DNA of 64,000 nucleotides, taken from positions 124,001 to 188,000 of the forward strand of contig NZ_VUNS01000007.1 of NCBI RefSeq assembly GCF_009695545.1, read 5' to 3'. Positions 28,828-32,228 of the stretch are shown here, piece by piece (the first letter of the stretch is position 1; each line of letters begins with the position of its first letter). This DNA comes from Victivallis lenta (GTDB lineage: Bacteria > Verrucomicrobiota > Lentisphaeria > Victivallales > Victivallaceae). The notes under the pieces are model-generated. The model was not told where the DNA came from, searched no databases, and saw only the letters and a program-made list of their open reading frames with translations. The position numbers were made by a program, and so were the translations under genes.

Positions 28828-29970
28828 TCAACGTAGGCGCGGCCCGTCGGTTCTGACCACGAACTCCCGGGCCGGAACCACGATCGAACGGTAGAAATCC
28901 GGGTTCGGCGCAAGGTGGATCTCCGACATCAGCTTGACGATCGCCCGGAATTCGCTGCTCAGCGGATGAGTGACCGCATTGCAGATAAAGCGTTCCTTGA
29001 ACTCCGGCACCTGGCTGAGGAGATTGTCGTAGCTGATCAGCTGAACTTCGCGTCCCGGCTTCAGGCCGTGTTCGTAGAGGACGTCCAGCACGCCGACCGT
29101 CACGTAATCCGAGAGCGAGATGATCGCCGTGTCGCATTTGAATTCCTTCAGGAACATCTTGCCGTATTCGCGGCCGCAGAGGATCTGGAAGTGGAAGTAG
29201 TCGCCGGACGGAACCGGGAAACAGAGGTTTTCCCGGCCGAAACCGCACAGCTCGGCCGCATCGCAGAGCGCTTCGTAACGATGTTCCGCAGTGGACAGAT
29301 TCGGTACACCGACCGCCATTGCCTTGCGGAACCCGCGCTCCATCAGGAACTCCAGCGCCCGGCGGAATCCGGGGCGGTAGTCGAAGAACACCTGATGCCA
29401 CGGACCGAACACGAATTCGTCGTCGCCGAAAAGGATCACTTCGCCGGGGAAATTCCGCAGTGCATCCGCCGCGACCTGCCGGTATCCGGCTTCGGCGATG
29501 ATATAATCGAAACGGCTCAGCTCCATTTCGAGCAGCGGACAATTTTCGACCTTCGGCAGCTGCTCGCTGTGGAACTCGACCGACAAACCGGCATCTTCGA
29601 GGACCTGCCTGAGCAGCGACCGCGAATTCCGGCACAGAATGCTGTTGAGCGACGGAATCTCATGATTCAGCGATTCGAAGTAGAAAAAACCGATGCGGCT
29701 GTGCGGCGGCAGTCCCATATTGCCGCGCACGAAGCTGCCGGAGCCGCGCACCCGGCGGATCAGCTTCAGGTCGGCCAGGTGTTGCAGCGCCCGGTGGACG
29801 GTTTTCTCGGAAACCCGGTAGCGGGAAGCAAGTTCCGCCGTGCCGGGCAGTTCCACGCCTGCGGCCAGCTGGCTGCCGACGATATGAGCCTCGAGCGCCT
29901 TCACGATATCCTGGCACCGATATTTCCGCCCGGTTTCCTCGGTTTTGATTTCCGCCGTCTGCATCATCAT
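28828..29970 (-). CDS. GntR-type transcriptional regulator with LacI-like sensor domain
   Basis: The 380-aa protein has an N-terminal winged helix (residues about 15-82; IVKALEAHIVGSQLAAGVELPGTAELASRYRVSEKTVHRALQHLADLKLIRRVRGSGSFV) typical of GntR/AraR-type factors, followed by a periplasmic-binding-protein-like sensor domain (about 90-370; SRIGFFYFES, GEVILFGDDEF, ALEFLMERGFRKAMAVG, DTAIISLSDYVTVGVLDVLYEHGLKPGREVQLISYDN). Such proteins respond to sugars. Gene order makes it the likely local regulator of the downstream pseudopilin-hydrolase-MFS genes. Three consecutive ATG codons open the frame; AGGA precedes the first. Confidence 0.88.
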   Translation of the reverse strand: MMMQTAEIKTEETGRKYRCQDIVKALEAHIVGSQLAAGVELPGTAELASRYRVSEKTVHRALQHLADLKLIRRVRGSGSFVRGNMGLPPHSRIGFFYFESLNHEIPSLNSILCRNSRSLLRQVLEDAGLSVEFHSEQLPKVENCPLLEMELSRFDYIIAEAGYRQVAADALRNFPGEVILFGDDEFVFGPWHQVFFDYRPGFRRALEFLMERGFRKAMAVGVPNLSTAEHRYEALCDAAELCGFGRENLCFPVPSGDYFHFQILCGREYGKMFLKEFKCDTAIISLSDYVTVGVLDVLYEHGLKPGREVQLISYDNLLSQVPEFKERFICNAVTHPLSSEFRAIVKLMSEIHLAPNPDFYRSIVVPAREFVVRTDGPRLR

Positions 29971-30430: not shown

Positions 30431-30506
30431 TGGTGGCCGGACCCAGAATCGAACTGGGGACACGGGGATTTTCAGTCCCCTGCTCTACCGACTGAGCTAT
30501 CCTGCC
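30431..30506 (-). tRNA. tRNA-Phe (anticodon GAA)
   Basis: The 76-nt cloverleaf reads GGCAGGA (acceptor), TA, D arm GCTC-AGTCGGTA-GAGC, anticodon arm GGGGA-CTGAAAA-TCCCC with anticodon GAA, T arm CCCAG-TTCGATT-CTGGG, then TCCGGCC, discriminator A and an encoded CCA. The acceptor stem has one A-G mismatch at position 4 (GGCAGGA against TCCGGCC); all other stems pair. Confidence 0.96.
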
Positions 30507-30601: not shown

Positions 30602-31267
30602 TCACTTCGCCGCTTTCGCTTTCAGGGGAGCTTCAAGAACGGTGAAGGCCGCGTCCGCAATCGCCGCCATGCCGCGGTCACCCGGATGCCAGTTGACGCC
30701 GCCGTTCGTGAAATGTCCTTCGCTGCCGGCTTTGTTCTCCGGATTGGCTGCCAGCGGCGCCAGATCGACCGCCAATGCGTTGTTCTCCTTCGCTGCCGCC
30801 TGAATCATTTCATTCAGCTTGCCGCCGCCCCAGTTGGTCAGGCAGACGATAATCGGGTCGCGGTCTCCGCGGAGATCCCTGATCATCTGCGCATAGTTGT
30901 TCTGGAACTCCTCGGCGTTCTGTTTGCCGCGGTAGTTGTCCGAAATCTGAATCACAATGACGTCCGCATCGTTGTCCGACAGATGTTCCCAGCCTTTCAT
31001 CTGCTTTTCATTGCTCAGATTGGCCAGCTGCAGTTCCGGCGCTTTCGCCTGGCCGACCGCATCGCTGATTTTCTTATGGAGCAAATGGGCGTAATCCTTA
31101 TCACGGCTGGTCGCCGCCATGCCCCAGTCGGAGTTCCAGCCGAGCTGCGGCGCCGCTCCGTGCCGCATGATGCTGTTGCCGATGATCATGACCTTTTTGA
31201 TCTCCTGCGCCTGCACTCCGGCGAGCATCAGTGCGGAACAGACGAACAATAAACCCTTTTTCCACAT
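30602..31267 (-). CDS. Secreted SGNH/GDSL-type hydrolase, intact catalytic residues
   Basis: The 221-aa exported protein (signal MWKKGLLFVCSALMLAGVQAQ) has the SGNH fold: block I IIGNSIMRHG with nucleophile Ser32, block III-like VIVIQISDNYRG (Asn region) and block V NWHPGDRGM with the catalytic His and Asp. Such enzymes deacylate sugars or lipids. A second, shorter paralog lies 18 bp upstream in the same operon and has lost the Ser and His. Shared stretches such as WNSDWGMAAT/WNHNWGMAAT show they arose by duplication. Substrate unknown; esterase activity on a glycan acyl group is likely. Confidence 0.82.
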   Translation of the reverse strand: MWKKGLLFVCSALMLAGVQAQEIKKVMIIGNSIMRHGAAPQLGWNSDWGMAATSRDKDYAHLLHKKISDAVGQAKAPELQLANLSNEKQMKGWEHLSDNDADVIVIQISDNYRGKQNAEEFQNNYAQMIRDLRGDRDPIIVCLTNWGGGKLNEMIQAAAKENNALAVDLAPLAANPENKAGSEGHFTNGGVNWHPGDRGMAAIADAAFTVLEAPLKAKAAK

Positions 31268-31285
31268 TTTCCACCTCCCGATTGG

Positions 31286-31912
31286 TTATTTGACGAGCGA
31301 TTCCAGAATCGCTTCGGCTATTTTCCGCATGCCCCGGTCGCCCGGCATATCGCCGAGCTTCGGGAATTTCCCTTCCGCGGCGGCGTGGTTGGCCGGATCG
31401 GCGTAAATCTCCCGCAGCGAAACATAAATCGCGTTCCGGTTCTCCGCCGCCTTGCGGATGACCGGTTCGAGCTGTATGTTTTTCCACGGCCCGACACAAA
31501 CCACGGTCTTCCGGCCGTTTTCGCAAAGTTCGTCGATCATCTGCTCGTAAGCCCCCTGATACTCTTCGAGCGAAACGCCGCCCTGATAGTTCTCGCTGAG
31601 CTGGATCACGATCAGGTCCGCGCTGCACGGGATCAGGTGGACCCAGCCGGTCATTGTATCCTGGTACATGATGCTGTCCACCGTCAGCTTGAGCTCCGGC
31701 GAATTTTTGCGGAGCTCCGCGCCGAGGCGGTGTACGTAATCGTTCTCCTTCGCCGTCGCCGCCATTCCCCAGTTGTGGTTCCAGCCCTGCGCCGGAATCG
31801 GTGCGCACAAGCTGATCGCATCCCCGATCACCAGCATCTCCTTATATTGCGGCGCGCTCGCGCAGCCTGCCAGAACCAGCGCCAGAAGCGCCCCTGCAAC
31901 CAATGTTTTCAT
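31286..31912 (-). CDS. SGNH-fold lipoprotein, probable pseudoenzyme
   Basis: The 208-aa product has a lipobox (MKTLVAGALLALVLAGCASA, Cys17), so it should be a membrane lipoprotein. It is paralogous to the SGNH protein encoded downstream (WNHNWGMAATAKENDYVHRLG), but the catalytic positions differ: block I is VIGDAISLC, with Ala32 in place of the nucleophile Ser, and block V is GDMPGDRGM, with Met in place of the catalytic His. Both changes are plain in the DNA (GCG and ATG codons). The fold appears intact and full length, so it is better read as a binding or scaffolding partner than as a broken gene. CGGAGT precedes the ATG. Confidence 0.8.
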   Translation of the reverse strand: MKTLVAGALLALVLAGCASAPQYKEMLVIGDAISLCAPIPAQGWNHNWGMAATAKENDYVHRLGAELRKNSPELKLTVDSIMYQDTMTGWVHLIPCSADLIVIQLSENYQGGVSLEEYQGAYEQMIDELCENGRKTVVCVGPWKNIQLEPVIRKAAENRNAIYVSLREIYADPANHAAAEGKFPKLGDMPGDRGMRKIAEAILESLVK

Positions 31913-31952: not shown

Positions 31953-31980
31953 ACTATACTGCGGACTCATTTTTTTGCAA
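31953..31980 (-). promoter_or_regulatory. Promoter of the SGNH gene pair
   Basis: Minus-strand TTGCAA (31975-31980), 16 bp and TATAGT (31953-31958). From here to 32228 I see no other gene or clear element. Confidence 0.55.
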
Positions 31981-32228
31981 ATTCGGTTTTCGGAAATCTT
32001 TCAAATTTCTCTCCCCGGATTTGAGAATCGCCGGGATGAGATTCACGGTAAGGCGAACGGAGAAAATCAAAACAGTCCGATCACCGGCAGATATCCGGTA
32101 AGACATCTTGCTTTTCCGTTGCCGGCCGTTCCGCCGGAGGTTCTGGAATTTCGCGCAGACCGATATGCGGCGGCTCCGGTTATCGGAGCCGATTCCGGCC
32201 GATTCCGGCAAATAAAACCCTTTGCCGC

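Follow-up and report, generated by a model that had tools for sequence, protein, structure and literature searches.

The window analysed here, a stretch of 64,000 nucleotides from Victivallis lenta, carries two adjacent genes, designated A and B, whose products are paralogs of the SGNH family (41% identity over approximately 199 residues, E 4.3e-38) and which are arranged on the minus strand in the order A, 18 bp, B and then tRNA-Phe. The features of the locus are as follows.

31953..31981, minus strand: weak promoter-like pair upstream of A (TTTGCA/TTGCAA, TATAGT), a consensus match only
31286..31912, minus strand: gene A, 208-aa SGNH-fold lipoprotein with Ser changed to Ala and His to Met, a pseudoenzyme
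31862..31912, minus strand: signal peptide of A ending in the lipobox LAGC (Cys17), as judged from the sequence
31811..31825, minus strand: former block I of A, Gly30-Asp31-Ala32-Ile33-Ser34, with Ala at the Ser place
31628..31678, minus strand: A residues 79-95 (DSIMYQDTMTGWVHLIP), holding 11 of the 38 columns invariant in A and not in B
31328..31348, minus strand: former block V of A, Met189-Pro-Gly-Asp-Arg-Gly-Met195, with Met at the His place and two residues missing just before it relative to B
31268..31285, minus strand: gap of 18 bp from the A stop to the B start, with the ribosome-binding-like GGGAGGTGG
30602..31267, minus strand: gene B, 221-aa secreted SGNH protein with Ser32, Asn111 and His194, a likely carbohydrate esterase
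30431..30506, minus strand: tRNA-Phe, directly downstream of B

The original prediction described this locus as a tandem of SGNH paralogs, one intact and the other a lipoprotein lacking the catalytic Ser and His, and the reading frames bear it out: both lie where they were placed, A reading GDAISLC and GDMPGDRG and B reading GNSIMRHG and NWHPGDRG. The N-terminus of B resembles an ordinary signal peptide by eye. Database profiles recognise the two proteins poorly, B scoring 32.1 bits against Pfam Lipase_GDSL_2, just below the cut-off of 32.9, and A reaching only E 0.017 in Pfam, also below cut-off, while NCBIfam gave no near-cut-off match for either. No terminator-like site was found on the minus strand in the 18-bp gap between the genes. 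The promoter-like site preceding A is one of five such sites found, compared with 1.3 expected in shuffles, and is a weak one.

The catalytic columns were placed by a profile of 41 SGNH family members aligned to solved esterase structures. In the family profile, block I lines up with GDSIT of acetylxylan esterase 7ddy. For B, the Asn111 column corresponds to Asn110 and the His194 column to His193 of the mannan esterase RiCE17 (6hfz); these two RiCE17 residues are the oxyanion Asn and the catalytic His, respectively (PMC13276840). The profile alignment to 7ddy and RiCE17 thus confirms the Ser and His columns as the true catalytic ones. B possesses the nucleophile Ser of block I (GNS), the oxyanion Asn of block III and the His of block V, its block II Gly loop being aligned without confidence. 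Both catalytic residues are kept in all 34 non-A relatives aligned, the His count being so partly by construction because the 28 outside rows of alignment A6 were extracted by a pattern that required His-Pro in block V, whereas in the Ser column it accepted Ser, Ala or Gly. A total of 29 outside loci had been sought, and the one missed by the pattern (L012) reads GNSL and WHPSDKGM by eye.

Among the seven same-type A proteins, the block V His is lost in every one, being replaced by Met in G000, G003 and G002, by Phe in G007 and by Arg in G001, G028 and G011. The block I Ser is lost in six, with Ala in G000, G003 and G002 and Gly in G001, G028 and G011, and G007 has the Ser without the His. The recurrence of these losses in same-type genes elsewhere (His in 7/7, Ser in 6/7) indicates that they are not a sequencing slip in the window. 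The Ser codon of the G007 gene is AGC, the codon used in five of the six B genes, so that the Ser was either kept or regained, a choice that the tree does not decide. As for the remainder of the protein, the original prediction regarded the rest of the fold as intact, which is true of the oxyanion Asn, retained in all seven A proteins, and of the 11 columns invariant in all 41 family rows, A included. It does not extend to a second family-conserved His (His36 of B, replaced by Cys, Asn or Thr in A), to the Trp-His pair at block V, which is missing in A, or to the two residues just before block V, where a gap is common to all seven. Asp58 and His61 (B numbering) are also invariant in 41/41 rows of alignment A6, A included, and lie outside the known catalytic blocks.

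Both proteins share the fold (Z 14-17) with CAZy-type SGNH hydrolases (CE2, CE3, CE17/RiCE17 and Axe2), and B shares the Ser, Asn and His places as well. B departs from RiCE17 in the residue three positions before the His, which is Val or Ile in all 34 non-A rows (Val191 in B), whereas RiCE17, like triad enzymes in general, has Asp there (Asp190). B therefore does not conform to the Ser-His-Asp triad and CBM35 clamp described for RiCE17 (PMC13276840): it has Val191 and, at 221 aa, neither a second domain nor a CBM35. A lacks the Ser and the His. In CE2 enzymes, Ser-His dyads are described in which a main-chain carbonyl takes the place of Asp (PMC2661963), so the lack of an Asp is compatible with B being an enzyme.

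Same-type A genes occur in seven of the 78 genomes of the taxonomic family. Within the window's genus they are present in five of nine genomes, the window's own among them, and within genus g4 in two of three, so that the evidence on A comprises seven sequences from two genera. Beyond these, no A-like score was obtained in a sample of 387 genomes of the phylum, in which at most eight candidates were scored per genome; lower-scoring relatives were found, and those that were read retain both Ser and His. The A proteins form one clade (100/100) inside the SGNH family and the B proteins another (97/91), which includes the extra copy L027. The contig end truncates the B gene of G011 at 110 residues; this copy is absent from A1, A3, A6 and the tree and was used only for a dN/dS over that part. 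Given that the His is lost in all seven A proteins together with the shared gap, the His loss is most simply placed on the stem of the clade, with the Ser lost later or repeatedly. Orthologs keeping Ser and His were the finding that the original prediction named as speaking against it; none of the seven same-type genes retains the His, and one retains the Ser.

A adjoins B in all seven genomes, on the same strand and with B downstream (in G011 up to the contig end that cuts B). The intervening gap is 15 bp in G003 and G002, 18 bp in G000, G028 and G011, 257 bp in G001 and 408 bp in G007; the last (L079, 7015-7422) looks palindromic and repeat-like by eye, unlike the gaps of 15-18 bp. The pair is found in at least four different neighbourhoods, among which those of G000, G002 and G003 have in common a glutaminase-like gene and a tRNA-Phe, the latter downstream of B. 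In G007 and in G001 the pair is flanked by different genes again, and LacI regulators and GH2-type proteins lie close by. In G028, from genus g4, the order is AraC, pseudopilin-like, GH5, GH5, A, B and GH130, and in G011 it is AraC-like, pseudopilin-like, GH5, GH39-like, GH5-like, A and B, the neighbouring open reading frames being mechanical picks, some of them on the wrong strand. A and B are thus kept together while their surroundings change. In the window's genome no recognised glycosidase directly adjoins the pair, and the tRNA gene is followed by a regulator. In the window's genome an SGNH domain of the A/B family is joined to GH5, and in G028 and G031 such a domain is joined to GH20, fusions that suggest glycan esters as the class of substrate. 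The GH5 fusion (L086, contig C5, 2322-4520, minus strand) is a 732-aa protein combining an SGNH domain of the A/B type with GH5. A further protein of the same genome (L085, contig C25, 4381-8868, minus strand; 1495 aa) has laminin-G-like, GHL10-like and malectin regions and a C-terminal SGNH domain.

The purifying selection acting on A matches that on B in strength. Most genome pairs are saturated (dS above 1), and dN/dS was therefore read from the two closest pairs only. For G002/G003 (dS approximately 0.6) the ratio of A is 0.058 and that of B 0.056, values that become 0.066 and 0.059 under a different trim. For G028/G011, A has a ratio of 0.19, and B has 0.135 over the 110 residues of B available. 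The Fisher p for A is 2e-25. Identity between genomes is higher for A in 11 of the 15 pairs, tied in one and higher for B in three. The dN/dS comparison proposed with the original prediction places A beside B (0.058 versus 0.056 in G002/G003), and the columns fixed only in B include the Ser and His places. Constraint has also shifted along the chain. Over 183 aligned mature columns in six genomes (G011 excluded), 76 are invariant in A, 66 in B and 38 in both. Residues 79-95 contain 11 of the 38 columns fixed in A only, for which a shuffle of the best 17-column stretch gave p 0.0034, a flattering value because that width was picked after the run had been seen. The 28 columns fixed in B only include a group in each of the Ser and His blocks, with p 0.05 for the best 17-column stretch, around the Ser. 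Six polar residues, Asp79, Tyr83, Asp85, His92, Glu149 and Lys185, do not vary among the six A proteins compared, whereas B shows no fixation of them.

Structure predictions, each built from six sequences, give both proteins an SGNH fold. The B model (mean pLDDT 83) adopts an SGNH alpha/beta/alpha arrangement with a best Z of 17.1 over 168 residues and Z 16.1 against mannan esterase 6hh9, and the A model (mean pLDDT 78) has a best Z of 15.5 and Z 14.6 against 6hh9. Confidence in the A model falls below 50 at residues 34-38, 40-42 and 184-188, which correspond to the former active site. Strand 2 of this model comprises residues 75-80, so the 79-95 stretch, in which residues fixed in A only cluster, begins at its C-terminal end. 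Active sites of this fold are situated there, so the stretch would be expected to form the pocket rim. When B alone was searched by sequence against solved structures, the only matches were chance ones to TAL-effector repeats, and they were set aside.

Enzymes can be encoded next to a retained inactive paralog, and A and B resemble such pseudoenzyme/enzyme pairs in this respect. The dead copy A probably has a job of its own, for example holding on to a sugar polymer or assisting its active sister. The original prediction proposed selection for a non-enzymatic role, either ligand binding or anchoring of the active partner; the strong purifying selection on A agrees with the general proposal, ligand binding is possible and favoured because of where the residues invariant in A only are located, and anchoring did not hold up. 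The reading favoured here is that A is a maintained pseudoenzyme acting as the ligand-binding partner of a carbohydrate esterase, B, with the binding and the contact with B conjectural; we give it roughly even chances. An SGNH gene of carbohydrate-esterase type may have been duplicated before the split of genera g1 and g4. Copy B stayed secreted and catalytically equipped, whereas from copy A the block V His disappeared along with two adjacent residues, as did the Ser in most lines. A retained the predicted fold, the oxyanion Asn and the family-invariant residues, and residues following strand 2, where the rim of the pocket is expected, became newly fixed. Its most likely role would be non-catalytic glycan binding, probably of acetylated mannan-type or related hemicellulose, at or near the cell surface and in co-expression with B. 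The fold, the domain fusions and the gene neighbours suggest that B is a carbohydrate acetylesterase; an acetyl ester as its substrate, a glycan as the ligand of A, the presumed cooperation or contact between the two proteins and their location are inferred.

A known system offers a partial likeness. CtCE2, a CE2 domain of Clostridium thermocellum attached to the cellulase CtCel5C, has a Ser-His dyad in which a main-chain carbonyl substitutes for Asp, and it binds cellulose non-catalytically in its own esterase site (PMC2661963). The use of a carbohydrate-esterase pocket for non-catalytic glycan binding is what A would share with it, as a proposal in the case of A; CtCE2 retains Ser and His and remains an esterase (PMC2661963), whereas A has lost both and has a separate, apparently active sister gene. 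BcCE7 and BcCE25, two esterases of one organism that act on acetylated beta-mannan (PMC13276840), differ from A and B in that both are active and belong to different families, BcCE25 retaining Ser-His-Asp. A search of the open literature found no report of a paired inactive SGNH carbohydrate esterase.

The main rival to ligand binding is that A is a structural or regulatory subunit, forming a heterodimer that stabilises or activates B and in which the pocket of A is irrelevant. This is a serious contender of rather low probability: it draws on the strict co-occurrence, the gene order, the short gaps and the persistence of the pair in at least four neighbourhoods, but the residues fixed in A only cluster after strand 2, at the expected pocket edge, rather than being spread along the chain. 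A second B-like copy in G028 (L087, contig C270, 6977-7609, plus strand; 82% identical to the B of that genome) also has no adjoining A, which speaks against this reading, with the reservation that L087 shows neither a clear start codon nor a signal peptide and is possibly a decaying duplicate. A bolder and unlikely possibility is that, once the Ser-His pair had been lost, the pocket of A was rebuilt around the six polar residues Asp79 to Lys185 listed above, yielding either new chemistry on the SGNH fold or a dedicated acetyl-glycan lectin that works only together with B. In its strictly enzymatic form, with those residues as a newly arranged active site, this seems improbable. Their invariance in the six A proteins compared, without fixation in B, and a strength of selection equal to that on B are in its favour, yet of the two residues on which the known chemistry depends, the His is missing from all A proteins and the Ser from most, and no precedent for such a site was found in this analysis.

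Still less credence is due to the idea that A serves as an anchor whose lipid tail keeps B on the membrane. A lipobox (LAGC) is present in five of the seven A proteins, the window's included, and absent from all six complete B sequences. The Pfam model LPAM_1 matched, weakly, one of the 13 members of alignment A1. In G028 and G011, however, A reads LAGN, with Asn at the place of the lipobox Cys, and the pair is nevertheless kept; since the lipobox is absent in these two of seven, anchoring is rejected as the conserved role. Least plausible of all is a dying duplicate on its way to becoming a pseudogene. The loss of two catalytic residues could be read in that way, but seven open frames, dN/dS of 0.058-0.19 in the two closest pairs and a tally of 76 invariant positions among the 183 aligned mature columns in A, compared with 66 in B, already contradict it. 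The frame of A is thus not decaying, as originally predicted, its identity between genomes being at least that of B in 12 of the 15 pairs.

Ligand binding remains the favoured role of A. SGNH proteins are annotated as hydrolases by fold, and the conserved A lineage dropped the chemistry under selection of enzyme strength while staying tied to an apparently active sister gene, a warning that annotation by fold miscounts esterases. If A binds a glycan or switches B on, it would show how bacteria that degrade glycans can convert esterases into binding proteins. The pair offers a clean test case, with two domains that are small and soluble and a defined set of fixed residues. Elsewhere in the window, a regulator with a GntR DNA-binding domain and a LacI-type sugar-binding domain is encoded at 28828-29970 (minus strand), adjoining a gene of pseudopilin-like type and one for a 686-aa protein that weakly matches a carbohydrate-binding domain.
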